Shown here in pieces: positions 45,448 through 64,000 of a stretch of 64,000 nucleotides of DNA. Under the pieces are notes generated by a model. It was given only the letters and a program-made list of their open reading frames with translations, searched no databases and was not told the DNA's origin. The translations under genes and the position numbers were made by a program. Location of the stretch: contig NZ_CP135921.1 of NCBI RefSeq assembly GCF_032397745.1, positions 5,692,501 through 5,756,500 of the forward strand, given 5' to 3'. Every line of letters starts with the position of its first letter. The first letter of the stretch is position 1. The stretch comes from Bradyrhizobium prioriisuperbiae. Lineage in GTDB: Bacteria > Pseudomonadota > Alphaproteobacteria > Rhizobiales > Xanthobacteraceae.

Positions 45448-45519
45448 GCCGGCTTAGCTCAGCGGTAGAGCAGCGGTTTTGTAAACCGAAGGTCGGGGGT
45501 TCAATCCCCTCAGCCGGCA
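45448..45519 (+). tRNA. tRNA-Thr (anticodon TGT)
   Basis: GCCGGCT pairs with AGCCGGC as the acceptor stem, the D-arm reads GCTC AGCGGTA GAGC, the anticodon loop is TTTGTAA (anticodon TGT), and the T-arm contains GGTTCAATCCC. The discriminator base is A, followed by CTA, so no CCA is encoded. Its 3' part is repeated at 55553-55591. The rest of the stretch up to 46004 holds no gene I can recognise. Confidence 0.95.
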
Positions 45520-45526
45520 CTAGTTT
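45488..45526 (+). repeat. tRNA 3'-end repeat, left copy (attL-like)
   Basis: The last 32 bases of tRNA-Thr plus 7 bases downstream. It matches 55553-55591 at 36 of 39 positions in the same orientation, 10,065 bp apart. Confidence 0.85.
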
Positions 45527-45971
45527 CTTCAATAAAATCAATTATTAGATGTGCGGTAGGTTTTGCTGGCGCAGACCTCTCCCGCTGCAATAGCCACCCG
45601 ATAGCCACGGATTTTCGACGGCGTCGATTCATATTCGTTCGTTTGTCGCGCCACTTGAATGGCTGAATTTCCGACATCTGATCTCGCAAGGGGAGATCGC
45701 AGCGTGATGTCCGATCTCCCGGTTCGCCACCGGCAGTTAGGGTGATATCGCCCATTCGTCGATCGGGAATATCCGCATTGTTGATGCGCGCGAATTAACA
45801 AGCCGCGTCGGGCGGCTTGTGTGAGGGCGCGAATTGCCTGGCCGTGCAGAGTCGAAATTGTCCGCCATCTTCCCTGGTTCTCCCGACGGTTTCACGCCTG
45901 GCTCATGGACCATGCGTCGAGACGAAGACATGAAGCTGGTCGAAAGCCTCCTGAAGCAACGAGCCCCTCGC

Positions 45972-46000
45972 TTGACAAGTTGTCCGGCCGCTGCTGATGG
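45972..46000 (+). promoter_or_regulatory. putative promoter of the riboswitch-cob transcript
   Basis: TTGACA (45972-45977) is a perfect -35 hexamer. The -10 at 17 bases (TGATGG) is poor. Confidence 0.4.
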
Positions 46001-46004
46001 TGTT

Positions 46005-46200
46005 CACGCTGGTTCCTGTCCTGCGACAGGCGAAGAGGGAATGCGACAGGGCCTCGAATTTGGCCCGAATCGCAGCCGCCCCCGCGACCGTGACCGGAGA
46101 GATGCCAAAGCCACTGATCCGTGTTGGGTTGGAAAGGCGGGCATCAAGGGCAAAATCCCACTCTGCAAGCCGGGAGACCTGCCAGCACAGGAATTGAAAC
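46005..46200 (+). promoter_or_regulatory. cobalamin (AdoCbl) riboswitch
   Basis: The conserved parts of the B12 riboswitch are in order: GGTTCC, GGGAATGCG, GCAGCCGCCCCCGCGACCGT, AAGCCACTG then GGAAAGGC, and the B12 box GCAAGCCGGGAGACCTGCCA (46165-46184). It ends about 220 bases before cobG. A cobalamin pathway operon directly downstream fits the known role: coenzyme B12 binding lowers expression of the operon. Confidence 0.93.
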
Positions 46201-46423
46201 CGGCGGGCGGGGTGGTTCCGCAACGGGGGACCGACCCTCAATCACGGTTCGTCTGCCTCATTGTCTCCGCCAAACTGCGAGAAGGGCGATGACCGTTACA
46301 CTCCCCGTCTGTGCGCCATGCCGCGCCGGTGGTAGACCAAGAGACATCAAGACCACGGCGCGTGCGCGTCTGCGTCCGGAGGATGCGGTCCAAGTCGGTT
46401 ACAGCCATGTTGAGTGAGGTTGC

Positions 46424-47587
46424 GTGAGTGCCGTTGCGATCAAGGGCTGGTGCCCCGGCGCCTTGCGGCCGATGCGATCGGGCGATGGACTCGTGGTTCG
46501 CGTCCGGCCGCACGGTGGGCGGATCGATGCACAGCAGGCGGCTGGACTTGCGGCACTCGCAAAACGATATGGCAATGGCCTGATTGATCTGACTGCCAGG
46601 GCTAACCTTCAGATCAGGGGCGTCAGCGATGAAGGCTACGGGTCTCTGATCGAGGAGCTCTCTCGTTTGCGCCTGATCGACCCGGATCCGGAATCGGAGA
46701 CGCGGCGCAACATCCTGGTGACGCCGTTCTGGGACTCTGGCGATGAGACCTGGTCTCTGGCCACGGAGCTTGAGCAGGAACTTGCGCTGGGGTCGCTCAG
46801 CCTGCCGGCCAAGTTTGGATTTGCCATCGATTGCGCGGCGACCTGCGTGCTGGCCGGCGCATCTGCCGACATCCGTTTCGAGCGCGACATTGCGGGTGGG
46901 CTCCTGGTCCGCGCCGATGGCCTGCAGACGGGTCGTCCCGTCACGCGCGCAGAGGCCGTGAAGGTTGCGCTCGCGCTGGCTGACTGGTTCGTTGATTCGG
47001 GCGGTGCCCGGGACGGGCGAGGGCGGATGGCTGCGCATATCGCGGCTGGTGCAACACTCCCTGAAGCTCTTCATGGCCATGCCAGGCCCGCTCGCGTGCT
47101 GGAGGTGCCGCAGCCCGGACTCTCTGCGTATGGCGCGATGGTCGGCGTGGCGTTTGGGCAGCTCACTTGCGACCTCCTCGGTGATCTTGCCGGGCACGCA
47201 CAAGGTCTGCGGCTGACGCCTTGGCGCATGATCCTTGCGGAGGGGCTGCGCGAGATGCCGGAAAACAAAAGTCTCATCACAAACCCTGACAATCCGATGC
47301 TGCGCGTTGTCGCCTGCAGCGGTGCGCCCGCCTGCCGGGATGCGCATGCCGACACGCGCACACTTGCGGCGGCGCTTGCCCCGCATCTTCCTGCCGATGC
47401 CCGGCTCCACGTGTCCGGTTGTGTGAAGGGGTGCGCTCAATCCGCTCCGGCTGCGATTACACTGGTTGCCACCAGCTCCGGATTCGATCTCGTCCGCGGT
47501 GGCTCGACGCGGGATATCCCCGTCCTGCGTGGACTGAGCTGTGCCGGCATGGTCGCGAACCCCTCTGCGCTTGTGGGAGGGCACTGA
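46424..47587 (+). CDS. cobG: precorrin-3B synthase
   Basis: Oxygen-dependent enzyme that hydroxylates precorrin-3A and contracts its ring, the mark of the aerobic cobalamin route. The 387-residue protein has a ferredoxin-nitrite/sulfite reductase fold in two halves. The [4Fe-4S]/siroheme-type Cys ligands are Cys297 and Cys303 (CSGAPACRD) and Cys333 and Cys337 (SGCVKGCAQ). The GTG at 46424 opens with the usual KGWCPGALRPM. It is the first gene after the riboswitch and overlaps cobH by one base. Confidence 0.93.
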   Translation: MSAVAIKGWCPGALRPMRSGDGLVVRVRPHGGRIDAQQAAGLAALAKRYGNGLIDLTARANLQIRGVSDEGYGSLIEELSRLRLIDPDPESETRRNILVTPFWDSGDETWSLATELEQELALGSLSLPAKFGFAIDCAATCVLAGASADIRFERDIAGGLLVRADGLQTGRPVTRAEAVKVALALADWFVDSGGARDGRGRMAAHIAAGATLPEALHGHARPARVLEVPQPGLSAYGAMVGVAFGQLTCDLLGDLAGHAQGLRLTPWRMILAEGLREMPENKSLITNPDNPMLRVVACSGAPACRDAHADTRTLAAALAPHLPADARLHVSGCVKGCAQSAPAAITLVATSSGFDLVRGGSTRDIPVLRGLSCAGMVANPSALVGGH

Positions 47588-48216
47588 TGCCACACACCTA
47601 CGAGACCGATGGTGCCGCGATCTATCGCCAATCCTTCGCAACGATCCGGGCGGAAGCGGACCTCACCCGTTTTTCGCAGGACGAGGAGCCGGTCGTTGTG
47701 CGCATGATCCATGCTGCGGGCATGGTGGGGCTCGAAGCGCAGATCCGATTCACGGTCGATATGGCGCGCATCGCGCGGGCGGCCCTGCAGAAGGGGGCGC
47801 CTGTTCTGTGCGATGCGCGCATGGTGTCGGAAGGAATCACGCGGTCGCGCCTGCCAGCCGGCAATGCCGTCATCTGTACGCTCAGTGATCCCGCTGTTCC
47901 CGCGCTTGCGTTATCCATGGGTAACACCCGCTCCGCGGCCGCGCTGGAGCTGTGGCGGCCGCATCTGGATGGGGCTGTGGTCGCCATCGGCAATGCGCCG
48001 ACGGCGTTGTTTCACCTTCTCAACATGCTGGAAGATCGCGCTTCTCCAAGACCTGCGGCGATCATCGGTTGTCCGGTCGGCTTTGTCGGCGCAGCCGAGT
48101 CCAAGGCGGCTTTGATGGCCAACCCACCGGTGCCGGCCCTCACGGTGGAGGGCCGCCTTGGGGGCTCGGCGATCACCGTTGCCGCCGTGAATGCCCTGGC
48201 GAGCTGGAGCGAATAG
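47587..48216 (+). CDS. cobH: precorrin-8X methylmutase
   Basis: Moves the C11 methyl group to C12 to give hydrogenobyrinic acid. A 209-residue protein with the catalytic His in VRMIHAAGMVG and the substrate-binding IGNAPTALFHLLNM followed by GCPVGFVGAAESKAAL. The ATG overlaps the cobG stop codon (TGATG), so translation is coupled. Confidence 0.95.
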   Translation: MPHTYETDGAAIYRQSFATIRAEADLTRFSQDEEPVVVRMIHAAGMVGLEAQIRFTVDMARIARAALQKGAPVLCDARMVSEGITRSRLPAGNAVICTLSDPAVPALALSMGNTRSAAALELWRPHLDGAVVAIGNAPTALFHLLNMLEDRASPRPAAIIGCPVGFVGAAESKAALMANPPVPALTVEGRLGGSAITVAAVNALASWSE

Positions 48217-48218
48217 CT

Positions 48219-48950
48219 GTGGGACGTATCATCTGCTGTGGTCTCGGGCCCGGCGATCCGGATTTGATGAGTGTGCGCGCCGACCGGGAGGTCCGCGCGG
48301 CCAGGCATGTTGCTTATTTCAGGAAGCGGGGCCGTCCCGGCGTGGCCCGGCGCATCGTCGATGGCATGCTGGCCGAGGATGTCCGCGAGTATCCGATGGA
48401 ATATCCGGTCACGACCGAGGTCGCCTTCGACAGTCCGGACTATGTCCATCTTCTGGCCGGCTTTTACGACGCGTGGGCGGAGCGCCTTGCGCAGCTTGCA
48501 CGCACCGTCGATGTTGTCGTGCTCTGCGAGGGTGATCCCTATTTTTATGGATCGTTCATGCACCTGCATAGCCGTCTGCAGGGGCGCGTCGAGATCGAGG
48601 TCATCGCAGGCATTCCCGGCATGGCCGGCTGCTGGAATGCGGTCGGTTTGCCGATTGCGCTCGGCGATGATGTTTTGACCGTGCTGATGGGCACGCTTCC
48701 GGAGGACGAATTCGCTCGGCGCGTGCGCAACTCCGATGCGCTTGTCATCATGAAAACCGGGCGCAATCTGATGAAGATCCGCCGCGGGCTTGCGGCGGCC
48801 GGCCGCCTCGGCCAGGCCTGGCTGATCGAACGCGGCACCATGCCGGGCGAGCGTATTGCGCGGCTGGAAGATGTCGAGAACACCGAGTGTCCCTATTTCG
48901 CGATTGTGCTTGTGCACGGGCAGGGGCGGCGGACGGACTCCGTCGAATGA
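48219..48950 (+). CDS. cobI: precorrin-2 C20-methyltransferase
   Basis: SAM-dependent methyltransferase that adds the C20 methyl group to make precorrin-3A. The 243-residue protein has the tetrapyrrole methylase fold: CCGLGPGDPDLMSVRADREV at the N-terminus, CEGDPYFYGSFMHL in the middle and EVIAGIPGMAGCWNAVG further on. The GTG start lies 2 bases after cobH. Its stop overlaps the cobJ start by 4 bases. Confidence 0.95.
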   Translation: MGRIICCGLGPGDPDLMSVRADREVRAARHVAYFRKRGRPGVARRIVDGMLAEDVREYPMEYPVTTEVAFDSPDYVHLLAGFYDAWAERLAQLARTVDVVVLCEGDPYFYGSFMHLHSRLQGRVEIEVIAGIPGMAGCWNAVGLPIALGDDVLTVLMGTLPEDEFARRVRNSDALVIMKTGRNLMKIRRGLAAAGRLGQAWLIERGTMPGERIARLEDVENTECPYFAIVLVHGQGRRTDSVE

Positions 48951-49681
48951 CGGGCACATTGACCATCGCGGGACTTGGACCGGGCGATCTGGCGCTGGTC
49001 ACGCCGGAAGTATCCGCTGCACTCGCGGATGCGACCGACATCGTGGGCTACGCGCCCTATGTCGCGCGCGTGCCGGTCCGTGCCGGGCTTACGCTGCATG
49101 CGTCCGATAACCGGGTGGAGTTGTTGCGCGCAGGCGAGGCCTTGCGGCTGGCATCGGAAGGACGCCGTGTCGTCGTGGTGTCTTCAGGCGATCCCGGCGT
49201 ATTCGCAATGGCCTCGGCCGTGTTCGAAGCGCTGGAAGCATCGCCGCAATGGCAAGGGCTTCCCATTCGGGTGCTGCCCGGCGTGACCGCGATGCTGGCC
49301 GCGGCCGCGCGCATCGGCGCGCCGCTCGGCCATGATTTTTGTGCCATCAATCTCTCGGACAATCTCAAGCCCTGGCCGATGATCGAGAGGCGCCTGCGAC
49401 TTGCCGTTGAGGCCGATTTTGCGATCGCGCTCTACAATCCGCGCTCAGTGAGCCGGCCCGAGGGATTTGGGCGCGTGCTCGAGATTCTGGGTGAGGCGGG
49501 GCGCGACGATCGTCTCGTGATGTTCGCGCGCGCGGTCAGCACGCCCGAGGAGCGAATTGAGACGGTGATGCTGCGCGAGGCCCGGCCGGAGATGGCCGAC
49601 ATGAGAACCCTGGTGATTGTTGGCAATTCGGCGACCCGCCGGGTCGGTCGCTGGGTCTATGCGCCCAGGCAGGCCCGATGA
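48947..49681 (+). CDS. cobJ: precorrin-3B C17-methyltransferase
   Basis: SAM-dependent enzyme that methylates C17 and contracts the ring, giving precorrin-4. A 244-residue protein: IAGLGPGDLALVTPEV, then DIVGYAPYV, the SSGDPGVFAMASAVFE motif and LPGVTAMLAAAARIGAPLGH. It overlaps cobI (ATGA) and converges on cobK, whose end overlaps it by 25 bases. Confidence 0.95.
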   Translation: MTGTLTIAGLGPGDLALVTPEVSAALADATDIVGYAPYVARVPVRAGLTLHASDNRVELLRAGEALRLASEGRRVVVVSSGDPGVFAMASAVFEALEASPQWQGLPIRVLPGVTAMLAAAARIGAPLGHDFCAINLSDNLKPWPMIERRLRLAVEADFAIALYNPRSVSRPEGFGRVLEILGEAGRDDRLVMFARAVSTPEERIETVMLREARPEMADMRTLVIVGNSATRRVGRWVYAPRQAR

Positions 49682-50406
49682 CCAAGCCACTGCATGACCT
49701 CAGTCACGCTGTCCGCCCGCGGCCTGTCCGGCACCTGCGGCCGCGCGATCATGATGACGGGAAGGCCGAGTTCGCCCGCGGCATCGATCTTGGCGCGTGC
49801 GCCATCTCCTCCGGAGTTGCGGGCGACGATCCATGCGATGCCACGGGCGCGCATCATGTCCAGGTCGCCGGTGAGCGTGAATGGTCCGCGCGAGACGATG
49901 ACATCGGCATCCGGAAGCGGCAGCGCCGCTTCGGGCGGATCGACAAACCTCAACGTGTAGGCGTGCTGCGGCCTGGTCGCGAAGGGGGCGATGTGCTGCC
50001 GCCCGATCGCAAGAAACACCCGCGTGCGTTGCTCCGGCAGCGCCGCGACCGCGGATGCGATATCCGGCACCTCGATCCAGCTGTCTCCGGTCGCCTTTGC
50101 CCAGGGTGCGCGCTCGAGCGCGATCAGCGGCGTTTGCGTGATCATACACGCCGCCACCGCATTGCGGCTCATCTCGGCCGCGAAGGGATGGGTCGCGTCG
50201 ACGACATGGGTGATGCTTTCCCGGCGGATATAGTCGGCAAGGCCGCTTGCGCCGCCGAATCCGCCAGTGCGGGTCGGCAGCGGCTGGTGCGCAGGCGCGC
50301 GGGTGCGACCGCCATAGGAGTAGATCGCGTCGAGTTCCGCGCGCGCTGCGGCCTCCGCAAGCAGATTGGCGTCGCTCGTTCCGCCAAGAATAAGAGCGCG
50401 CACCAT
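49657..50406 (-). CDS. cobK: precorrin-6A reductase
   Basis: Reduces precorrin-6A to 6B with NADPH. A 249-residue protein with the N-terminal ALILGGTSDANLLAEAAA and DATHPFAAEMSRNAV motifs, and SRGPFTLTGDLDMM with ARNSGGDGARAKIDAA, both typical. It is the only gene of the cluster on the minus strand. Its ATG (50404-50406) overlaps the ATG of cobL (50405-50407) within CCATGG. It lies fully opposite any transcript running from cobJ to cobL. Confidence 0.95.
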   Translation of the reverse strand: MVRALILGGTSDANLLAEAAARAELDAIYSYGGRTRAPAHQPLPTRTGGFGGASGLADYIRRESITHVVDATHPFAAEMSRNAVAACMITQTPLIALERAPWAKATGDSWIEVPDIASAVAALPEQRTRVFLAIGRQHIAPFATRPQHAYTLRFVDPPEAALPLPDADVIVSRGPFTLTGDLDMMRARGIAWIVARNSGGDGARAKIDAAGELGLPVIMIARPQVPDRPRADSVTEVMQWLGHRACLGA

Positions 50407-51586
50407 GGCTGATCCCTGGTTGACCATTGTCGGTTGCGGCGAAGATGGCCTTGACGGCCTCTCGGATGCAAGTCGAAAGGCGCTTGCGGACGCCGAGACG
50501 GTCTTCGGTGGCGAGCGGCATCTCGCGCTGGCAGGCATCACCGGCCGCGGCCATCCCTGGCCGGTCCCGTTCGCCACGAGCGGCGTGCTGGCTTGCCGCG
50601 GCCGCCCGACCGTGGTGCTCGCCTCGGGAGATCCGTTCTGGTTTGGCGTTGGCAGCACTCTCACGGAGCAGCTGAATGACGATGAGTGGATTGCGTATCC
50701 CGCACCGTCGACATTTTCGCGCGCCGCGGCGCGGTTGGGATGGCGGCTCGAATCCGTCGTCTGTCTCGGGCTTCACGCGGCACCGTTCGAACGCCTGGTG
50801 CCGCATCTCGCCCTTGACGCACGCATCATTTGTCTGGTGCGTGACGGCAAGGCGGCGGGTCTTCTGGCCGAATGGCTGACGATGCGCGGCTGGGGCGAAT
50901 CGAAGCTCTGGAACCTGGTCGCGCTCGGCGGCCCGCGCGAATCCATCACGCAACATCGCGCCGACGACTACACGGCCGATCCCGGTGAGAGACTGGTGGC
51001 TGTTGCGCTGGAACTTTCCGGATCGGATGGGTTGCCGCGCAGTTCCGGACTGCCCGACGCGCTGTTCGTTCATGACGGCCAGATCACCAAGCGGCCGATA
51101 CGTGCACTTGCGTTGTCCGCGCTCGCGCCGAGACTGGGTGAGAGGTTGTGGGACATCGGCGCCGGCTCCGGCTCGATTGCGGTGGAATGGGCGCTGTGCG
51201 GAGGGAGCGCGATCGCAATCGAAACGCGGGAAAGGCGCGCGGCGAACATCCGGGCCAATGCCGCAGCTTTTGGCCTGACGCATCGGATCCGTGTCGTTGA
51301 GGGAACGGCGCCCGATATCCTTTCGGGCCTCGAGACGCCGCAGGCCGTGTTCATGGGCGGCGGGCTCGACGCGGCGATGTTCGATGCGATCTGGTCGCTT
51401 GTTCCCCCGCGCACGCGGCTGGTTGCGCACGCCGTCACGCTGGAGACGGAGGCATTGCTCGCGGATCTGCAGCAACGTCATGGCGGCGAACTGATGCGGA
51501 TCGAGATTGCGCATGCAGCCAGCCTCGGCCGCTATCGGTCCTGGGACGCGGTGCGGCCGATCGTGCAATGGAGCGGTTTCAGGTGA
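50405..51586 (+). CDS. cobL: precorrin-6Y C5,15-methyltransferase (decarboxylating)
   Basis: Bifunctional enzyme methylating C5 and C15 and removing the acetate side-chain carboxylate to make precorrin-8. A 393-residue fusion: a CbiE-type methylase in the first ~200 residues ([26 protein letters not shown]) and a CbiT-type Rossmann methylase after about residue 210 ([17 protein letters not shown]). It overlaps cobE (GTGA). Confidence 0.95.
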
Positions 51587-51951
51587 AGGTCGCAGGTCTG
51601 GGATTCAAACGCGACGTGGATGTCGCTGCGCTGCGCGAGGTGCTCGCTGCAACGGGCTGCGCCGATGGGCTTGCCGCAATCGCAACCATCGGCGACAAGG
51701 CCGAGACGGCTGCGCTCCGATTGCTCGCCCGCGAATTAGGCGTGCCGATCAAGGCGGTTCCGGCCGATGCCCTGGTCGGCATCGCCACTTGCACGCAATC
51801 CGAATTGATCAAGACGACCTTCGGCACGGGATCCATCGCCGAAGCTGCGGCCCTCGTGGCGGCTGGCCGAGGAGCGCGTCTCATTTCGACACGGACGGTG
51901 TCACGGGATCGGACCGCCACCGCGGCGGTCGCGGAAGGAGACGGCGAATGA
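51583..51951 (+). CDS. cobE: cobalamin biosynthesis protein CobE (CbiG C-terminal-like)
   Basis: A 122-residue protein similar to the C-terminal domain of Cbi[21 protein letters not shown] at the start and [15 protein letters not shown] later. In the aerobic pathway CobE is essential, but its exact step is unclear. The GTG at 51583 overlaps the cobL stop; an ATG at 51568 is an alternative. Its stop overlaps cobM. Confidence 0.88.
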
Positions 51952-52730
51952 CTGTGCATTTCATTGGTGCCGGTCCGGGCGCCGCCGATCTGCTGACCTT
52001 GCGCGGACGCGATCTCATCGCCGCCTGTCCTGTCTGTCTTTATGCCGGCTCTCTGGTGCCCGAGGGGGTTCTGGCGCATTGCCCGCCTGGTGCCCGCATC
52101 GTCAACACGGCTTCGTTGTCGCTTGACGACATCATGTCGGAGATCGTCGCCGCGCACGGTGAGGGCAAGGACGTCGCGCGGCTGCATTCCGGAGACCTGT
52201 CGATCTGGTCGGCGATGGGGGAGCAACTGCGCCGGCTGCGGGCGCTTGACATTCCCTATTCCGTCACGCCCGGCGTGCCGGCATTTTCCGCCGCGGCAGC
52301 GGCGCTCGAGGCCGAACTCACGCTGCCGGGACTCGTACAATCCGTCGTGCTGACGCGAACACCGGGACGGGCGAGCGCGATGCCCGAAGGTGAAAAGCTC
52401 GCGGCCTTCGCTGCCACAGGCGCGGTGCTTGCCATCCATCTCTCGATTCATCTCCTGGCCAAGGTGGTAACTGAGCTGACGCCGCATTACGGAGCGGATT
52501 GTCCGGTGGCGATCGTCTGGCGTGCGAGTTGGCCGGACCAGCGCATCATCCGCGCGACCCTCGCCACGCTCGATATGGCTGTCGGCGAGGAGCTCGAGCG
52601 CACCGCGCTCATTTTGGTCGGCCGGTCGCTCGGCGCCGGGGAGTTCGACGAGAGCCGCCTCTATGCGGCCGACTATGACCGGCGCTACCGGCCGCTCGGC
52701 CCGGCGCCGCGCTTTCCGGAGAAGTCCTGA
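51948..52730 (+). CDS. cobM: precorrin-4 C11-methyltransferase
   Basis: Adds the C11 methyl group to make precorrin-5. A 260-residue tetrapyrrole methylase with [31 protein letters not shown], and [20 protein letters not shown], followed by [20 protein letters not shown]. The ATG overlaps the cobE stop codon. Its own stop shares the A of the next ATG (TGATG). Confidence 0.95.
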
Positions 52731-54043
52731 TGCCGGCGAGCCTCCTCATCTCCGCGCCTGCTTCCGGTGTCGGCAAGACGACGCTGACGCTGGCATTGGC
52801 GCGCGCCTATCGCGATCGCGGGCTGAAGGTTCAGTGTTTCAAGAGTGGGCCAGACTATATCGATCCTGCTTTTCATACCGCAGCCACCGGACGCGCCTCG
52901 GTCAACATCGATAGCTGGGCCATGGATCGTGCAACCATCGGAGCGCTCGCCGCGCGGGGGGAGGATTCGGATCTTGTCCTGGCTGAAGGATCGATGGGCC
53001 TGTTCGACGGTTCTGCCGCGAAGGGCGTTTGGGGCACCGGCGCCACGGCTGATATCGCCGAGATGATGGGGTGGCCGGTGCTGCTTGTCATCGATCCTTC
53101 GGGACAGGCGCAAACCGCTGCAGCTATAGCTACGGGACTGCGCGATTTTCGCGCGGGCGTGCGTATTGCCGGGGTCGTCCTCAATCGCGTCGCCAGTCCG
53201 CGGCACGAGAAGCTGGTGCGCGATGCGTTGGCCGGGGTCGACATACCCGTCTTCGGCGCATTGCCTCGCCACGCTGCGATCGCGCTGCCGGAGCGGCACC
53301 TTGGCCTGGTGCAGGCTGAGGAGCATGGTGAGGTTGACGGCCTGATCGCAGAGGCCGCACGTGTCGTCACCACGCATGTTGATCTGGATGCGGTGTTGCA
53401 GGCGGCGGCGCCCGCCCGGTTGCCACAACGGCCGTCGTCGCCCGCGGTCGTGACGCCGCCCGGTCAGCGCATTGCTTTGGCGCGCGATAGCGCTTTTTCT
53501 TTTGTCTATCCGCATATGCTCGAAGCCTGGCGTGCCGCGGGTGCCGAGATCGCAACCTTCTCGCCACTCGCCAATGAGGCTCCCGATGCCGGCGCCGACG
53601 TCTGCTGGCTGCCGGGCGGCTATCCGGAGCTGCATGCCGGCCGGATCGCAGCCAACACACGCTTCCGCCGCGCGTTAACATCCTTTGCCGAAACGCGCCC
53701 GGTGCATGGCGAGTGCGGGGGCTATATGGCGCTTGGCGGCGGGTTGACCGATGCTGGGGGTGTCCGCCACGAGATGGTGGGATTGCTCGGCCTGGAAACC
53801 AGCTTCGCCCAGCGCCGCTTGCATCTGGGCTATCGGCTTGCCGAGCTCGTGGTGCCGATGCCCGGACATCAGGTGGGGGCGCGGCTGCGCGGCCACGAAT
53901 TCCATTATTCCACCATCGTCTCGCAGCCCGATCCATCCCTGGCCGTCGTTCGCGATGCGGCCGGCACGGGTGTCGCGGAAACCGGCTCGCGGCGCGGCAA
54001 CACCACCGGCACATTCTTTCATCTGATCGCGGAGGACAGGTGA
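52730..54043 (+). CDS. cobB: hydrogenobyrinic acid a,c-diamide synthase
   Basis: Glutamine amidotransferase that amidates the a and c side chains with ATP. The 437-residue protein has the P-loop-like APASGVGKTTLTLALA at residues 9-24 and FKSGPDYIDPAFH, then a C-terminal glutaminase domain with the nucleophile Cys in HGECGGYMALG and the His in GHEFHYSTIV. The last aerobic ring step found in this cluster. Confidence 0.95.
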   Translation: MPASLLISAPASGVGKTTLTLALARAYRDRGLKVQCFKSGPDYIDPAFHTAATGRASVNIDSWAMDRATIGALAARGEDSDLVLAEGSMGLFDGSAAKGVWGTGATADIAEMMGWPVLLVIDPSGQAQTAAAIATGLRDFRAGVRIAGVVLNRVASPRHEKLVRDALAGVDIPVFGALPRHAAIALPERHLGLVQAEEHGEVDGLIAEAARVVTTHVDLDAVLQAAAPARLPQRPSSPAVVTPPGQRIALARDSAFSFVYPHMLEAWRAAGAEIATFSPLANEAPDAGADVCWLPGGYPELHAGRIAANTRFRRALTSFAETRPVHGECGGYMALGGGLTDAGGVRHEMVGLLGLETSFAQRRLHLGYRLAELVVPMPGHQVGARLRGHEFHYSTIVSQPDPSLAVVRDAAGTGVAETGSRRGNTTGTFFHLIAEDR

Positions 54044-54768
54044 GCGGCTTCGTTTCCTTTGTCTCGGCCGGTCCTGGCGATCCCGAGCTATTGACGCTCA
54101 AGGCGGTTGCGCGTCTGCGCGCGGCCGATGTCGTGCTCTACGACGATCTCGCGTCAGGCGCGATCCTTGATCATGCCCGTCCCAGGGCCAAGCTGGTGGC
54201 GGTTGGCAAGCGTGCAGGCCGCCCCTCGACCAAGCAACAGCACGTCAACGAACTGCTTGTCGAGCACGCTACGGCCGGCGCGTGCGTCGTGCGATTGAAG
54301 TCGGGAGATGCCGGAATCTTCGGCCGGCTTGAGGAGGAGATCGCCGCGCTGCGCGCGGCGGGCATCGGCTATGAGATTGTTCCCGGGGTTACTTCGGCGT
54401 GTGCTGCCGCAGCGCAGGCGGGCATCCCGCTGACCCGACGATACACATCGCGCCGTGTCCAGTTCGTGACTGGCGCCGACGTGACCGGGCAGTTGCCGAC
54501 CAATCTCAATTGGTCCGCGCTGGCCGATCCGGAATCGACGACCGTCGTCTATATGGGTCAGCGAACGTTCCCGGCCCTTGCCGCGAAACTGATCGCCCAT
54601 GGTTTGGCCCCCGATACGCCGGCGCTGCTCGCCGAATCTCTCGGTCATGTCGAGGAAAGGCTTGTCCGGACCACGGTTGCGGCACTCGCCGAACGGCTGG
54701 CACAAAGCGGCCCCGCAGCGACAGCGGCCGTCATTTTGTTCGGCGCATTGGCGGGAGAAACGCCGTGA
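54040..54768 (+). CDS. cobA: uroporphyrinogen-III C-methyltransferase
   Basis: Methylates uroporphyrinogen III at C2 and C7 to precorrin-2, the entry step. A 242-residue SUMT: VSAGPGDPELLTLKAVARLR, VLYDDLAS, RLKSGDAGIFGRLEEEI and VPGVTSACAAAAQAGIPLTRR. It is free of the CysG reductase domains. The GTG start overlaps the cobB stop by 4 bases. Confidence 0.95.
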   Translation: MSGFVSFVSAGPGDPELLTLKAVARLRAADVVLYDDLASGAILDHARPRAKLVAVGKRAGRPSTKQQHVNELLVEHATAGACVVRLKSGDAGIFGRLEEEIAALRAAGIGYEIVPGVTSACAAAAQAGIPLTRRYTSRRVQFVTGADVTGQLPTNLNWSALADPESTTVVYMGQRTFPALAAKLIAHGLAPDTPALLAESLGHVEERLVRTTVAALAERLAQSGPAATAAVILFGALAGETP

Positions 54769-55532
54769 CGCTGGCGCTGTCCCTGATCGGCATTGGTTGC
54801 GGCGACCCCGAGCAACTGACGCGCGCGGCTGTTCGCGCCATCAATGCGGCCGATCTCATCCTGATTCCGCGCAAGGGCGCCCTCAAGTCCGATCTCGCTG
54901 AGCTGCGCCGGTCGATCTGTGCGCAGGTGCTCACGAACAGCCGCACGCGCATCATCGAGTTCGATCTGCCCGTGCGTGACGCCGGCCAGGATGACTACCG
55001 CAAGGGCGTTGATGAATGGCACGACGCCGTGGCCGCAACCTGGTCGCGGGAAATCGCACGCCATCTCGGAGGTGAGGGGCGCGCGGCTCTGCTGATCTGG
55101 GGCGATCCGTCCCTGTTCGATTCAAGCCTGCGGATCGCGCGACGGCTCGATCCGGCACCAAGCATCGAGGTGATCCCGGGCATCACCTCGATCCAGGCGT
55201 TATGCGCGGCGCATGCGCTGCCGCTGAACGAGATCGGCGAGCCGTTCCTGGTGACGACGGGGCGACGGCTGCGCGAAGACGGTTGGCCGTCGGGGACGGA
55301 CACCGTGGTGGTGATGCTCGATGGTGGTATGGCCTTCCAGTCGCTCGAGCCGGATGGGCTGCAGATCTGGTGGGGCGCTTATCTCGGTATGCCCGACCAG
55401 GTCATCGTATCCGGGGCGCTGGCCGAGGTCGGCCCTCACATCGTGGCCACACGGCAGCAAGCGCGCGAAAGGCATGGCTGGATCATGGACAGCTATATTA
55501 TCAGGCGCGACAGAGCGGAGGTGTCGAAATAG
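54765..55532 (+). CDS. cobF: precorrin-6A synthase (deacetylating)
   Basis: Methylates C1 of precorrin-5 and removes the acetyl group to give precorrin-6A. A 255-residue tetrapyrrole methylase with LIGIGCGDPEQLTRAAVRAI, LIWGDPSLFDSSLRIARRL and IPGITSIQALCAAHALPLNEIG in its usual order. The GTG overlaps the cobA stop. It is the last gene of the cluster, and the truncated tRNA copy starts 21 bases later. Confidence 0.94.
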   Translation: MTLALSLIGIGCGDPEQLTRAAVRAINAADLILIPRKGALKSDLAELRRSICAQVLTNSRTRIIEFDLPVRDAGQDDYRKGVDEWHDAVAATWSREIARHLGGEGRAALLIWGDPSLFDSSLRIARRLDPAPSIEVIPGITSIQALCAAHALPLNEIGEPFLVTTGRRLREDGWPSGTDTVVVMLDGGMAFQSLEPDGLQIWWGAYLGMPDQVIVSGALAEVGPHIVATRQQARERHGWIMDSYIIRRDRAEVSK

Positions 55533-55552
55533 TCGCGCGCGTTCTATAAGCG

Positions 55553-55591
55553 GAAGGTCGGGGGTTCAATTTCCTCAGCCGGCACCAGTTT
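55553..55591 (+). repeat. tRNA-Thr 3'-end duplicate (attR-like)
   Basis: Contains GAAGGTCGGGGGTTCAAT and then CCTCAGCCGGCAC, both exactly as in the tRNA-Thr gene, with two changed T-arm bases (TT for CC) and one later (C for T). It reads GGCACCA, so this copy carries an encoded CCA after the discriminator position, unlike the complete tRNA. The 5' half of a tRNA is missing, so it is not a functional gene. It marks the right end of the cob block. Confidence 0.85.
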
Positions 55592-55704
55592 ATGCAGTTT
55601 CTTGGCGCTTGGTCATATTTGCTGCGGCGACGGGCCCGGCGCTGGCACGGAGCTTTGTCCGGACCTCGCGTGATGGCATGATGCAACCCCGGTTGAGGCA
55701 GACT

Positions 55705-57156
55705 CTATAGGATTACGTTGATCGTCTTCGTTTCCGTGTAGCTGAGCAGTTCCTCGATGCCTTCCTCCCGTCCGATCCCGCTGTTCTTCATGCCGCCGAA
55801 CGGCACGCCGAGATAATGCGAGCCGAAGCCGTTGATCCAGATGTGACCGGATCGCACGCGTTTTGCGGTGTTGAGAGCGTTCTTGATATCGTTGGTCCAG
55901 ATCGCCGCGGTCAGGCCGAATTCCGTGCTGTTCGCGAGGGTGATCGCCTCCTCGAGACTGCGCCAGCGGCCGACGGACAGGATCGGCCCGAAAACCTCTT
56001 CACGCCACAAGCGCATCTGCGGCCGAACGTCGGCGAACACCGTCGGCCGGACCCAGAAGCCGCGCTGGAATTCGGCGCCGGCCGGCGGTTCGCCGCCGGC
56101 GAGCAGACGGGCACCCTCCCGCCGTCCATCCTCGATGAAGCCGACCACTTTGCGGAGCTGGTCGGCCGAATTGATCGGGCCCATATCAGTATCCGCCCTG
56201 GACGGATCACCCACGCGCAGGTCGGCCACGCGGGCCGCGACACGCTCGACCACCGCGTCATGGATATCCTCGTGCAAGAGCAGCCGGCTGGTTGAACCGC
56301 ACGACTGCCCCTGCCACGTGAAATTCATGCCTCCGACCGCCGCCTTTGCGACGGCGTCCACGTCCGCGTCGGGGAAGACGATCATCGGGTTCTTGCCGCC
56401 GAGTTCGAGGGTCACATGCTTGACCCCGGCGTCGGCCGCGGATCGCTGGATGGCGCGGCCGGTGACGGTCGATCCGATGAAGGCGATCCGTTTGATCGCA
56501 GGGTGCCTGACAAGGGCGTCACCCGCCGTCCGTCCGGGTCCGGTTATGATGTTGAAGATGCCGGCCGGAAGCGCGTCGCGCGCGATATCGGCCAGCACCA
56601 TGGCCGAGAGCGGACTGGTTTCGGGCGGCTTGACGATCACCGCGTTGCCCGACGCCAGCGCGGCCGCGGTTCGCGCCACGGCGAACATCAGCGGATGGTT
56701 GAACGGCACGATGCGGGCGACGACACCATAGGGTTCGCGCAACGTGAAATGGATCTTGTCCGGCGTGGCGGGAAAGGTCTCGCCCTTCACCTCGTGCGCG
56801 AGGCCGGCATAGTAATTCAGGCTTTCGACGGCCATGCGAACGTCGCCGCGCATCGGCGTGATGGTGTTGCCGGTATCCGCGACTTCGACGTGCAGGATTT
56901 CCTCAGCGCGCGCCAGCAGCCGCCGTCCGAATTCACGCAACTGCTCCGCGCGCTCGCTCACTGGCATGGCCGACCAGGCCGGCCACGCGGCTTCGGCGGC
57001 GGCAGCGGCCCGTGCGACGTCCTCGGCCGTTGCAGAGGGAACACGGCCGATCACCTCCTCGGTAGCCGGATTGATCGAATCGTCCCACAGGCCGCTTTCG
57101 CTGACCACGAGTTCTCCGCCGATCAGCATGCGCTCATGTGTCGTGACACGTGCCAT
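55705..57156 (-). CDS. aldehyde dehydrogenase family protein
   Basis: An NAD(P)-dependent aldehyde dehydrogenase of 483 residues. The Asn is in PFNHPLMFA, the glycine motif in FIGSTVTGRAIQ, the base Glu in VTLELGGKNP and the catalytic Cys in TWQGQSCGSTSR. The usual end motif IWINGFGSHYLGVPFGGMKN is present. The ATG at 57156 is chosen with AAGGAAT upstream. It is probably part of the following catabolic locus; the substrate aldehyde is not identified. Confidence 0.93.
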   Translation of the reverse strand: MARVTTHERMLIGGELVVSESGLWDDSINPATEEVIGRVPSATAEDVARAAAAAEAAWPAWSAMPVSERAEQLREFGRRLLARAEEILHVEVADTGNTITPMRGDVRMAVESLNYYAGLAHEVKGETFPATPDKIHFTLREPYGVVARIVPFNHPLMFAVARTAAALASGNAVIVKPPETSPLSAMVLADIARDALPAGIFNIITGPGRTAGDALVRHPAIKRIAFIGSTVTGRAIQRSAADAGVKHVTLELGGKNPMIVFPDADVDAVAKAAVGGMNFTWQGQSCGSTSRLLLHEDIHDAVVERVAARVADLRVGDPSRADTDMGPINSADQLRKVVGFIEDGRREGARLLAGGEPPAGAEFQRGFWVRPTVFADVRPQMRLWREEVFGPILSVGRWRSLEEAITLANSTEFGLTAAIWTNDIKNALNTAKRVRSGHIWINGFGSHYLGVPFGGMKNSGIGREEGIEELLSYTETKTINVIL

Positions 57157-57301
57157 GATCCATTCCTTCAATTTCCAATCGTGCGAGATACGATCGGTAT
57201 CATGTTTTCGTCAGTCCGAGTCAGCGACCGCCGCCTTCGATGGCATGTCGGGCCAGCATGTGAACCGTCCTCCGCGCGGCAGCGCCGCTGCCGGCCAAGA
57301 C

Positions 57302-57334
57302 AAAGCCTCCGGCAGAACAGTGCCGAAGGCTTTT
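57302..57334 (-). terminator. terminator of the porin gene
   Basis: GCCTCCGGC (57305-57313) and GCCGAAGGC (57322-57330) pair with one mismatch. Both flanks carry AAA/TTTT, so it can end transcription on either strand. It lies between the porin stop and the ALDH start. Confidence 0.7.
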
Positions 57335-57350
57335 CGAGATGCCGCTGTCA

Positions 57351-58871
57351 TCAGAAACTGCGCAGGGCCTGGACAGCGCCGTTGTATCGGTTCTGATCTC
57401 TGACATTGAATGTGGTGGCGCCTGCATAACCGGGCACGCCTGTGACATTCACCGTGCCGCTCAGGTTCTGGTCGAGACGGGTGTAGGTGAATTCGGCCGA
57501 CAGCGTCAGATTCCTGACCGGACTCCAGGCCGTTCGCGTGCCGATTTGAGCGAAGCCGAGCGAAAACGTGCCGGCGAGCGCGGAGCCGGCTGCAACGCTG
57601 TTGGGGGGCGGGACCGGCGCGTTGAATGCGGCAAGCAGAGCAGCGTTCGCACCGCTGCCATAGGAGATCTGACTGTACGAGCCGAATACCGAGGTCCGCC
57701 AGGCCGGGTTCCAATAATGCTCATAGTAGGCGCTCACCTCCCACGCATCGGTCTTTGAGATGCCGGTTCCATTCGCGGCATTGGTGCCGGTATACACGCC
57801 GTCAAGGATGTAGCCGAATGCGATGCCGTTGCCGTTGGCGATGGCGAAACGGCCGGCGCCGAGTTGGTCGATGGTGCCGCCGAAGACATATTTGGCCGCG
57901 CCATTGGCGAAGCTGGCTTCGACTTTCAAGCTGTCACCGGTGCCTGTCGGCAGGTTCTTCAGCTCGAAAGCGCCGCTGATCGCGTAGCCCCAGGTGGACG
58001 ATGGGTGGCCCGTATCGCTGTTGGCGGCGGTATAATATGTCCCGTGGACTTCGTGGGCGGCGGCTGCGATGTGCGCCGATCCCCAGGCCTGGTCGATGCG
58101 CAGATTGCCGACAATGTCCGGAACATGGTCGCCGCCCTGCGCGTTGCCGACAAAGCTGTTCGCGACCGTGCCATAGGTCGGGCCGCTGGTGCCGTTGGAT
58201 CCGAACGGACCAAGAAACGTCACTGCGGTGTTGATGACGCCAGCCGAGCGATAGGGCTGCGCGTCTTCCAGCGAGATCGTCGCCGACAGGCCGTTGCCGA
58301 GTGTTGCGGTGTAAGCCAGCATCGGAATGCCGGTTGTGTTGTTCGAACCGGTCATGAAGCCGTTCGAGATAAACGGCTTGCCCAGCGCCCACTGCGGGTC
58401 GAACATCGAGACGGCCTTGCCGAAGGTGAATCCGGCGAACTGGATGAATGCAAAGTCGGTTGCGCCGAAGCCGCCGGCGATATTGTCCCGGCCCTGGGTG
58501 AAGTCCAGTTGCAGGTTGGCGTAGGTGCGCAGAAGGCCGTAGTCGGTGGCGGTGCGTGTATCGACGAACAGGTTGACGCGCTCGCGCGTCGAGAAGTAGT
58601 TGCGGTTGAACGAGCCGGCACCGTTTGCGCCACCCAGCCAGAACGGCGCGTCGTAGACGGCGCCGTTGAAGGCGGTATCGATGCGGATTGCTCCACCGAT
58701 CCGAAGGCAGGTGTCAGTGCCCGGGATGAAGTAGAAGCCGGCACCATAGAGATTGCAGATCTTGACGTACTCGATTGCTTTGGTCTTTACGGGGAGATCG
58801 GCGGCTTGTGCACCGGCCAGGGCGACAAGACCTGCCGCAGAGCCGAGCGTGAGCGACTTAAGAACACTCAT
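57351..58871 (-). CDS. outer-membrane porin
   Basis: A 506-residue porin of the alphaproteobacterial type. The signal peptide ends at AGAQAADLPVKTK, followed by the typical VKICNLYGAGFYFIPGTDTC and LRIGGAIRID segments. Alternating polar and aromatic residues and a C-terminal LRSF ending (Phe last) fit a 16-strand barrel. It lies among catabolic genes and a LysR regulator, so substrate-specific uptake is possible. Confidence 0.94.
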   Translation of the reverse strand: MSVLKSLTLGSAAGLVALAGAQAADLPVKTKAIEYVKICNLYGAGFYFIPGTDTCLRIGGAIRIDTAFNGAVYDAPFWLGGANGAGSFNRNYFSTRERVNLFVDTRTATDYGLLRTYANLQLDFTQGRDNIAGGFGATDFAFIQFAGFTFGKAVSMFDPQWALGKPFISNGFMTGSNNTTGIPMLAYTATLGNGLSATISLEDAQPYRSAGVINTAVTFLGPFGSNGTSGPTYGTVANSFVGNAQGGDHVPDIVGNLRIDQAWGSAHIAAAAHEVHGTYYTAANSDTGHPSSTWGYAISGAFELKNLPTGTGDSLKVEASFANGAAKYVFGGTIDQLGAGRFAIANGNGIAFGYILDGVYTGTNAANGTGISKTDAWEVSAYYEHYWNPAWRTSVFGSYSQISYGSGANAALLAAFNAPVPPPNSVAAGSALAGTFSLGFAQIGTRTAWSPVRNLTLSAEFTYTRLDQNLSGTVNVTGVPGYAGATTFNVRDQNRYNGAVQALRSF

Positions 58872-58984
58872 GGAAACCTCCAGGTTTGCCCTTCAGGAAG
58901 CGTCCCGGTTCCGTTGTGCAAAGCACACGCGGGAGTCGAGACCAATGCTCTCGTGTTCGTCGCGAACGTCGACGTTTGATTCGA

Positions 58985-59090
58985 TTGGCGGAATATGCGG
59001 ATGCCGACATGGCGCGACCGCGCCGGGCATCCGTCCTGGGCCGGCATGCAATCCGCGGCCGTCAATTCGCAGCGCACCCGACTGGGTCAT
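58985..59090 (-). pseudogene. decayed copy of the 5' end of the class II aldolase gene
   Basis: On the minus strand from an ATG at 59090 the DNA reads ATGACCCAGTCGGGTGCGCT, matching the start of the 60378 gene (ATGACCCAATCGGACGCAGT). After a 5-base deletion the match continues in another frame as CELTAADCMPAQDGCPARSR, which resembles RRELVAANHILAHEGVLD. Similarity fades at about residue 35. It is a remnant, not a gene. Confidence 0.75.
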
Positions 59091-59182
59091 TGCGTGTCCC
59101 CCTGTGATTGTCGGCTCGATTGGCCGTTTCTTGACCGCGAGCAAAGCGCACGGTTGCTGGCCTGTCCAAGACATGTTTCTTT

Positions 59183-59204
59183 TCAGCCAGACCGAATTGG
59201 TTTG
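59183..59204 (-). promoter_or_regulatory. 22-bp conserved control element, left copy
   Basis: Identical on the minus strand to 60273-60294 (CAAACCAATTCGGTCTGGCT plus GA). The identity lies in a longer (~135 bp) similar stretch (59091-59226). It probably is a LysR binding or promoter site upstream of the porin gene. The rest of 58872-59251 holds only the decayed aldolase fragment and the regulator's upstream DNA. Confidence 0.6.
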
Positions 59205-59251
59205 ACTGATACCGGGCGGATGCCGAAGGTTTCACCCAGGGAGGACATGCG

Positions 59252-60184
59252 GTGCGCATGCGGCAGCTGGAGTATTTCGTGCGGGTCTGCGAGGCGGGCA
59301 GCCTCACCAAGGCGGCCGAGCTACTCGGTGTCGCCCAGCCGGCCCTGGGGTTGCAGATCAAGAGCCTCGAGGACGAACTCGGCATGCAGCTCCTGGTCCG
59401 GACACCAAGGGGAACCGTCACCACGGATGCGGGCGAAATCCTGCTGGAAGACGCGCGGGTCATCCTGAACCGGGTGCGAGAGCTACGGCGGAAGCTGCGC
59501 GATGTGGGCACCGCCGCGAAGCGCTCCATCATGCTCGGCATGACGCCGAGTCTGACCAATCTGCTGACGAGCCGGCTGCTTGGCGCGCTTCCCAAAGAGG
59601 CGCCGCACGTCAAGGTGCAGATCCTCGAGGAATTCAGCCATAGTTTGATCGAACGGGTCGACCGCGGTCAGCTCGACCTTGCACTGGCCTACAGCATTCC
59701 CGCCGATCACCCGCTGGCGCGCGAGCCGCTGCTGCGGGAAGCGCTGTTTTTTGTGTGCTGTCCGGGCTCGGAGTTCGATCGGCCAGGGCCGCTGCCGTTC
59801 CGCGATCTCGCCATGGCGGAATATGTCATGCCGGGCGAGGGCGATCTGGTTCGCCAGCGTGTGGAAGAAACGTTACACCGCAACAGCCTGCCCCTGAACA
59901 TCATCTATCAGGTGCAGTCATCGCAGGCGATGAAGGATGTGATCGCCCGTGGCATGGCCTGCGGGGTGCTGCCTTACGGAACAATCGCCAAGGAACTCGC
60001 TGCCAAATCCCTGGTCGCCCGTCCCATTATCGATCCGCCGATCGTGAGGGAGCTGTTCGTGGTTTGGCCGTCCGGCAGGACGCTGACGAAGGATGAGCGC
60101 CGGGTTCTGACCATCATCAAGGGTCTGTTGCGGAGTCTCTTGATCGAGATCCCGGAACTGGCGGAGTGGCACTCCGCCGCTTAG
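59252..60184 (+). CDS. LysR family transcriptional regulator (Nac/CynR-like)
   Basis: A 310-residue regulator. The N-terminal helix-turn-helix reads LEYFVRVCEAGSLTKAAELL and GVAQPALGLQIKSLEDELG, and the C-terminal part is the type 2 substrate-binding domain. GGGAGG at 59239-59244 supports the GTG start at 59252. It lies between the two inverted copies of a shared promoter region, so it probably controls the porin on the left and the aldolase operon on the right. Confidence 0.93.
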   Translation: MRMRQLEYFVRVCEAGSLTKAAELLGVAQPALGLQIKSLEDELGMQLLVRTPRGTVTTDAGEILLEDARVILNRVRELRRKLRDVGTAAKRSIMLGMTPSLTNLLTSRLLGALPKEAPHVKVQILEEFSHSLIERVDRGQLDLALAYSIPADHPLAREPLLREALFFVCCPGSEFDRPGPLPFRDLAMAEYVMPGEGDLVRQRVEETLHRNSLPLNIIYQVQSSQAMKDVIARGMACGVLPYGTIAKELAAKSLVARPIIDPPIVRELFVVWPSGRTLTKDERRVLTIIKGLLRSLLIEIPELAEWHSAA

Positions 60185-60272
60185 ACGTTTGAAGTGATGA
60201 ACCAATGACCCGGATGGAAACGATCGCGGGAATGCTTTTGCGGTTTCCACTCGGCATCCGGTCGACATCAGC

Positions 60273-60294
60273 CAAACCAATTCGGTCTGGCTGA
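60273..60294 (+). promoter_or_regulatory. 22-bp conserved control element, right copy
   Basis: CAAACCAATTCGGTCTGGCT plus GA, identical to the reverse complement of 59183-59204, 84 bases before the aldolase ATG. Similarity continues through GAAACATG and TTGGACAGG to GCGGTCAAGAAA. Confidence 0.6.
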
Positions 60295-60377
60295 GCAGAA
60301 ACATGCCTTGGACAGGCGGCCAACGGTGCGCTTTGCTTGCGGTCAAGAAAACCGCCGATCGAGCCGGGGAGGCAACA

Positions 60378-61127
60378 ATGACCCAATCGGACGCAGTGCG
60401 TCGCGAACTGGTCGCCGCGAACCACATCCTGGCCCATGAAGGGGTGCTGGACGCGTTCGGCCATGTCAGTGTTCGCAATCCGGCCGATGCCGGCCGCTAT
60501 CTGCTGTCCCGGTCCCGCAGCCCCGAAATCGTGGCGGATGCGGACATCCGCAGCTTCACCCTTGATTCGACTCCAATGGAGCCCGAATCCGGGCCGTTTT
60601 ATATGGAGCGGGTGATCCACGGCGCTCTTTACCAGCTCCGTCCCGACGTCAGTGCGGTCTGCCATTTCCACGCTCCGCCGATCATGCCGTTCTGTGTCAC
60701 TGGTATGGAGATTGTGCCGGTGACACATCTCGGCGCCACCATGGGTGCGAAGGTCCCGTTCTGGAGCGGGCAGGATAGTTTCGGCGATACCAACATGCTG
60801 GTCTCGACGGCGGAGGAGGGGGCCTCGCTCGCCAAGGCGATGGGCTCCAACTGGTCCGTCCTGATGGCCAACCATGGGGCCGTGGTCGCCGGCCGGACGC
60901 TGCGCGAGGTGGTCTTTCGCGCGATCCATTTTTGTCGCAACGCAGAAGTCCTCGGAGCCTCATTGCGGCTCGGCAGCGTGACACCGCTGACGGCAGGCGA
61001 GATCCGGCTTGCCAGTGAAGTCAACCTTCAGGATGTGGTTTTGCAGCGCGCCTGGGACTACTGGCTGCACAGGGTACCGCGCGATGGGGACCGATGGCCT
61101 CGCCAGGCCGGTACGGCGGCGGGGTGA
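60378..61127 (+). CDS. class II aldolase/adducin family protein
   Basis: A 249-residue zinc or metal-dependent enzyme of the fuculose-1-phosphate aldolase fold. Metal-ligand His residues are in VCHFHAPP and MANHGAVVAG. GGGGAGGCAACA precedes the ATG. Relatives are aldolases or decarboxylases of hydroxylated aromatic acids; this sequence is closest in style to the decarboxylase-type subgroup, which is an inference. It is followed by the ThDP enzyme gene after 6 bases. Confidence 0.9.
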   Translation: MTQSDAVRRELVAANHILAHEGVLDAFGHVSVRNPADAGRYLLSRSRSPEIVADADIRSFTLDSTPMEPESGPFYMERVIHGALYQLRPDVSAVCHFHAPPIMPFCVTGMEIVPVTHLGATMGAKVPFWSGQDSFGDTNMLVSTAEEGASLAKAMGSNWSVLMANHGAVVAGRTLREVVFRAIHFCRNAEVLGASLRLGSVTPLTAGEIRLASEVNLQDVVLQRAWDYWLHRVPRDGDRWPRQAGTAAG

Positions 61128-61133
61128 ACAGGA

Positions 61134-63865: not shown

Positions 63866-63868
63866 GCC

Positions 63869-64000
63869 ATGTCACGCGCGGCGACGTCAAGTCAACGCTG
63901 GGGAGCCGCGATACTTGGATTCGGTGCACTCGTCGCCGCCGTCGTCGTGCTCGAAATTCTGATCCGGGTCGACCTCGTCAGTCCGTTTGTCGTCCCGCTG
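63869..64000 (+). CDS. ABC transporter permease, N-terminal part (cut by window end)
   Basis: Starts with an ATG 3 bases after the ATPase stop. The 44 visible residues contain one hydrophobic helix (AAILGFGALVAAVVVLEILI). This is the expected first transmembrane helix of the importer permease. The rest lies beyond the window. Confidence 0.7.
   Translation, partial: MSRAATSSQRWGAAILGFGALVAAVVVLEILIRVDLVSPFVVPL

Follow-up and report, generated by a model that had tools for sequence, protein, structure and literature searches.

A cobalamin (vitamin B12) gene segment beside tRNA-Thr(TGT) of Bradyrhizobium prioriisuperbiae has the features of a genomic island. The host genome (G000) is a single contig of 9,083,454 bp, and the window analysed here is a 64,000-nt stretch of it, bases 5,692,501-5,756,500, positions in which serve as coordinates throughout. 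From the anticodon stem of the tRNA (~45476) to 55596, we read the segment with good confidence, from its sequence, as an old, integrase-less island resembling a cis-mobilizable element (CIME). The initial annotation had also called it a likely genomic island, a reading that is backed by the relatives at this site, by conflict between gene trees and by other islands at the same tRNA.

The two ends are marked by the tRNA and a partial copy of it:
45448-45519/20, + strand: working copy of tRNA-Thr(TGT), called by ARAGORN and Rfam; left boundary, attL-like
45476-45531, + strand: left copy of a 56-nt direct repeat, from the anticodon stem to just beyond the tRNA 3' end
55541-55596, + strand: remnant of the tRNA-Thr 3' part, truncated and decayed, with its CCA encoded; attR-like right end of the cob segment

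One tRNA-Thr(TGT) was detected in the window by both ARAGORN and Rfam, and it is the sole full copy in the 9.08-Mb genome. The repeat copies lie on the same strand with a spacing of 10,065 bp and are identical at 47 of 56 positions. In the shorter 39-nt frame of the initial annotation, which had reported a truncated, same-orientation copy at this spacing, the match was reproduced (45488-45526 against 55553-55591, 36/39 identical). In a whole-genome search with a 101-nt tRNA query, the gene was recovered at E 7.5e-47 and the 3' copy at E 2.4e-10, followed by an unrelated match at E 0.005; the best other match to the 39-mer over 124 kb, both strands included, was 23/39. The locus therefore has the arrangement used by Islander, an intact tRNA with its 3' fragment as a terminal direct repeat.

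Between the copies, the following features were identified:
45527-45970, no strand: left end of the element, ~440 bp, with no match in plasmids or fetched loci and no Pfam match in six frames tested
45993-46200, + strand: cobalamin riboswitch RF00174 (Rfam, 92.8 bits)
46424-47587, + strand: cobG, precorrin-3B synthase (TIGR02435)
47419-48216, + strand: cobH, precorrin-8X methylmutase (open reading frame (ORF) limits; homology begins near 47590)
47952-48950, + strand: cobI, precorrin-2 C20-methyltransferase (ORF limits; homology begins near 48216)
48887-49681, + strand: cobJ, precorrin-3B C17-methyltransferase (start inferred)
49657-50664, - strand, opposite to the other cob genes: cobK, precorrin-6A reductase (PF02571; ORF limits)
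50366-51586, + strand: cobL, CbiE/CbiT fusion
51568-51951, + strand: cobE, CbiG C-terminal domain
51954-52730, + strand: cobM, precorrin-4 C11-methyltransferase (start inferred)
52730-54043, + strand: cobB, hydrogenobyrinic acid a,c-diamide synthase
53713-54768, + strand: cobA, uroporphyrinogen-III C-methyltransferase (ORF limits; homology begins near 54040)
54774-55532, + strand: cobF, precorrin-6A synthase (start inferred)

All eleven cob genes (G, H, I, J, K, L, E, M, B, A and F) are open and have Pfam or NCBIfam matches. The ten other than cobE are the genes that define an aerobic cobalamin ring operon, so that set is complete. Together the cob genes cover the ring half of aerobic B12 synthesis, taking uroporphyrinogen III to hydrogenobyrinic acid a,c-diamide, and the island is accordingly predicted to supply corrin-ring synthesis. 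The earlier description of the content as the riboswitch and cob genes only was borne out, with the addition of the ~440 bp without a match. No mobility gene was found among the ORFs scanned between the copies, and the nine PF00589 matches in the genome all lie ~2 Mb or more from the locus, consistent with the absence of an integrase noted before. Nor did the ~440-bp left end reveal an integrase remnant: six of the 28 stop-to-stop frames of 45540-46420 gave no Pfam match at E up to 0.1, and the region gave no plasmid match.

The right copy starts 9 bp past the cobF stop codon, and DNA homology to most Bradyrhizobium cob clusters stops at 55496-55517, within 45 bp of that copy; the cargo and the repeat therefore share their right boundary closely. 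This bears on the possibility that an earlier, unrelated island deposited the tRNA copy and that the cob genes entered the interval later by homologous or illegitimate recombination, in which case the repeat would be no mark of cob transfer. Reuse of the site would agree with such a history, four other genomes out of 30 having truncated copies with their cobF, where present, elsewhere, as would the decay of the copy (47/56), which makes the integration old. Nevertheless, the tight coincidence of the right ends and the restriction of the content to the riboswitch, the cob genes and ~440 bp make this history improbable.

The site was compared with two further genomes of the genus, G001 and G002. 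In both, tRNA-Thr is intact with its CCA encoded, and cobF is lacking at E 1e-20. Synteny with G001 on the left covers 22974-45523. The native right block corresponds to extended G000 coordinates from ~84.5 kb and contains tRNA-Tyr and tRNA-Gly; its start in G001 is ~0.5 kb past the tRNA according to protein matches and 1.3 kb past it according to blastn. The segment is thus absent from the same tRNA in G001, where the native blocks are adjacent, and the G002 contig, which stops 2.0 kb past the tRNA, is only partly informative on its absence. Because the native right block follows the G001 tRNA so closely, ~39 kb is inserted in G000, composed of the 10-kb cob segment and a ~29-kb catabolic and ABC-transport segment. 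The 10-kb extent given in the initial annotation must consequently be revised, as it covers only the first part of the insertion. The surroundings of the cob segment are as follows:
22974-45447, no strand: native flank on the left, with synteny to G001 from 22974 and to the 9.3-kb G002 contig from 33105
55597-64000, continuing to extended position ~84,440 (L147, L148), no strand: start of the second inserted segment, with aldehyde dehydrogenase, porin, LysR, ABC transporter and other catabolic genes

Within the second segment, the DNA of 60300-63865 has 70-80% homologues in many of the 296 genomes of the family, and around tRNA-Thr in the eight relatives compared the ~29-kb segment was not seen, except for a single weak porin match in G284. 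Alternatively, tRNA-Thr to ~84.4 kb might be one island of 39 kb, the copy at 55.6 kb being an internal junction or the accretion scar of two elements. In G001 none of this stretch lies between the tRNA and the block downstream, and accretion of a CIME and an integrative and mobilizable element (IME) at attR is a process described in the excerpted text of PMC5704250. Against this view, no third tRNA copy above noise was found near ~84.4 kb or elsewhere in the 124 kb, and the two segments differ in content (catabolism versus B12). We therefore regard a single 39-kb island as rather unlikely, and retain the 10-kb cob island as the unit.

The distribution and phylogeny of the cob genes also point to transfer. 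CobF was found at E 1e-80 or better in 25 of the 296 family genomes, and in none of the relatives compared does such a cluster stand beside tRNA-Thr. In the genome group taken as Bradyrhizobium (g25), all 19 CobF-positive genomes have cobF apart from tRNA-Thr, either on the same contig at >0.6 Mb (7) or on another contig (12). Among the five CobF-positive genomes outside g25 besides G000, cobF lies away from tRNA-Thr in G020 and G061, and G200, G216 and G224 have no tRNA-Thr place listed. Additionally, no tRNA-Thr was found near named cob loci (58 of 80 scanned, up to 10 kb on each side). A tRNA-Arg called by ARAGORN in L085 overlaps a riboswitch match and was dismissed as a false call.

The rpoB tree unites G000 and G001 and sets G000 apart from the g25 rows; no rpoB match was obtained for G002. 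The concatenated Cob tree was built from nine Cob proteins of 93 of 100 loci plus G000, with cobA and seven loci with too few genes left out. In it (26 rows), G000 falls with B. retamae, B. valentinum, B. jicamae, B. hereditatis, B. cenepequi, sGM-13 and G105, with a Shimodaira-Hasegawa-like approximate likelihood ratio test (SH-aLRT) support of 98. Among single-gene trees, the sister set of G000 consists purely of jicamae-group rows in 7 of 10 (support 0.37-0.94), and in the cobH tree it comprises all seven jicamae-group rows and three others. In the approximately unbiased (AU) test, a constraint that unites the 18 core Bradyrhizobium rows to the exclusion of G000 is 24 log units worse, at a modest p of 0.033; the test used 26 of the 94 rows, and the group was chosen once the tree was known. 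The cargo hence shows a foreign ancestry, with the modest AU value and two disagreeing gene trees, cobA and cobF, as qualifications; the gene-tree comparison that the initial annotation had proposed thus favoured transfer, the concatenated tree and seven of the ten single-gene trees putting the cob genes with the jicamae group in conflict with rpoB.

An ancestral cob cluster at tRNA-Thr, lost in G001 and G002, with the tRNA copy as an unrelated local duplication, would be the vertical counterpart of this history. The cob DNA of G000 is 75-81% identical to Bradyrhizobium cob loci (among the loci listed), about as divergent as other shared DNA, so the age of the split by itself needs no transfer. 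However, G001 bears a different ring-synthesis cluster elsewhere (L223, G001:C1:2620000-2639999; CobG 37% and CobM 66% identical), cobF is not beside tRNA-Thr in 21 of the 24 other CobF-positive genomes, which are those with a place listed, and the cob trees conflict with rpoB, all of which render vertical descent very improbable. Under the island reading, the same 75-81% identity and the decayed repeat suggest that the integration was probably an old event. The occurrence of a cob cluster on a Bradyrhizobium plasmid (H1) shows that such clusters are found on plasmids. A 143-kb Bradyrhizobium plasmid (L211, NZ_CP136627.1) carries a nearly complete B12 cluster, with the nodulation gene nolL ~9 kb further.

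Elements have landed repeatedly at tRNA-Thr(TGT) in Bradyrhizobium and related genomes, which makes it an integration hot spot: 5 of 30 genomes (G000 and four others) have a truncated tRNA-Thr 3' copy downstream. Relatives with the same truncated copy and no cob genes had been named beforehand as evidence against an island. Copies of this kind do occur in four Bradyrhizobium, formally as described, but at other distances and with other flanks, and because of these differences they are taken as events separate from that in G000. In G026, the copy (G026:C1:6191927-6191975) is 49/49 identical and bounds a 103.5-kb island, with a recombinase gene 90 bp inside. The encoded protein (L234:17140-18837) is a divergent tyrosine recombinase with the arm domain PF13356, and its predicted model has the lambda-integrase fold and the catalytic residues (pTM, the predicted template modelling score, 0.55; residues 479-488 of low confidence). 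Compared with lambda integrase, the fold is the same, whereas the H477-Y497 spacing of the G026 protein is longer. It gave no PF00589 match and no NCBIfam model at E up to 0.1. Its 52 homologues are, where named, mostly 'hypothetical protein'; none was found in viral contigs or phages, and plasmids yielded one 32% match. A PF00589 check of the relatives' intervals would by itself have overlooked this recombinase, and since PF00589 misses the family, island surveys relying on it would overlook such elements. G026 and G272 (left ends L151/L236) have 112 nt in common at 96%, across tRNA-Thr and approximately the first 30 nt beyond, which suggests that they carry related elements.

Composition was rejected as evidence of transfer. 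The dinucleotide distance delta* of the G000 cob segment was 68, compared with a mean of 34 and a maximum of 67 over 33 flank windows, but the native cob clusters of G026, G268 and G152 (L198, L203 and L191) deviate more, with delta* of 79-114 from their own flanks (window means 29-36), so this measure would falsely flag them as foreign. GC content at third codon positions hardly varied, being 0.741 for cob, 0.748 for the native flank and 0.766 for the 29-kb segment. The composition check recommended initially gave a raised value that is uninformative.

The two copies differ at their 3' ends, the right one reading GGCA-CCA and the working tRNA GGCA-CTA. An encoded CCA follows tRNA-Thr in 28 of 29 relatives scanned, and CCG in one. 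This pattern agrees with the suggested origin of the right copy as the chromosome's own 3' end, which by its CCA it may be; a point mutation fits equally well, and the next 40 nt do not decide. The next 24 nt of either copy matched the 29 relatives no better than random window pieces (fractions 0.13 and 0.25), and among eight local alignment comparisons, the working copy gave p 0.015 against G001 and the remnant p 0.07 against G026.

Several observations, in addition to the limits of the AU test and the uninformative dinucleotide bias, weigh against the cob island as proposed. The flanks past either copy have no clear match to native ones. The empty-site comparison advised in the initial annotation succeeded in part, the G001 tRNA being intact with the native block close behind, but no empty site with flanks identical to G000 was found, and the second segment, without a repeat of its own, parts the repeat from the native flank. 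With gapless scoring, the left edge of the copies lies at position 20-29 in four and at 50 in G272, whose copy has a gap. No PF00589 match lies at the G000 locus, and a G026-type recombinase gave no tblastn match over 124 kb, the stretch of G000 covered by that search. Moreover, G000 does not group with the jicamae group in the single trees of cobA and cobF, and three rows with a Bradyrhizobium label or grouping (L079, L084 and L209) are not part of the 18-row core.

Taken with these reservations, the cob island would have arisen by strand exchange, catalysed by a tyrosine recombinase, between the chromosomal tRNA-Thr and an element bearing a copy of the tRNA 3' part. This would have rebuilt a working tRNA at the left end, with the displaced 3' part remaining at the right, immediately after cobF. 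The element, from a donor perhaps in or near the B. jicamae group, would have brought a riboswitch and, under its control, the half of the aerobic B12 pathway that builds the ring. Its integrase may later have been lost, or may have been supplied in trans as for a CIME, and since the repeat has also decayed, the island has probably become fixed. The ~29-kb catabolic segment, the second one, lies between the island and the old downstream flank.

A second set of cobalamin genes of G000 (cobT, U, W, N, O, Q and D, with transport genes) lies at 2.96 Mb (L222, G000:C1:2954000-2973999), 2.8 Mb from the island; its gene order is that of the G046 cluster, to which amino-acid identity reaches 75-78%. 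In G046, CobM was not found at E 1e-15, and the CobF-positive genomes among the 296 searched do not include it. Because this lower-pathway cluster is common to G000 and a genome in which no CobM was found, the lineage may have been a corrinoid salvager made a full producer by a single tRNA-Thr integration, through elements of an unannotated, tRNA-Thr-specific tyrosine-recombinase subfamily; we offer this tentatively, as a less than even possibility. In G001, CobF matched nothing except, weakly, the CobI of that genome, and the CobM match has one internal TGA; neither CobN nor CobM was found in G002. On the island reading, the G000 locus is a clear molecular trace of the one-step gain of the long, costly ring half, with matching lower-pathway genes elsewhere in the genome.

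Among the titles listed from the open-licence literature on Bradyrhizobium and rhizobial islands, cobalamin islands at tRNAs, or B12 in Bradyrhizobium, none concerned a cob island at tRNA-Thr. The B12 genes of the Lactobacillus reuteri pdu-cbi-cob-hem cluster are likewise patchy as a block, as far as the excerpted account goes. That cluster is a fuller one, of an anaerobic-type pathway in Firmicutes. The G000 island has the aerobic ring half only. The photosynthesis gene cluster islands of Bradyrhizobium cosmicum concern another pathway, with no tRNA named in the excerpt (PMC7656271), and an IME at a tRNA-Thr is described for Mesorhizobium (PMC8627217, in excerpt). According to the excerpt of the Islander paper, island ends are recognised by a regenerated tRNA and by a displaced 3' fragment of like orientation, and anticodon-centred sites form one class (PMC4383910). 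The G000 island has the same end marks, and as the Islander definition quoted there demands an integrase gene inside, it is not classed among them. In the excerpt of PMC5704250, a CIME keeps its att sites while integration and transfer genes are absent, and is mobilisable in trans or in cis. In the G000 island, which is known from its sequence, the att copies now disagree at 9 of 56 positions, perhaps enough to prevent recombination; like a CIME, the island retains both attL and attR without integration or transfer genes.

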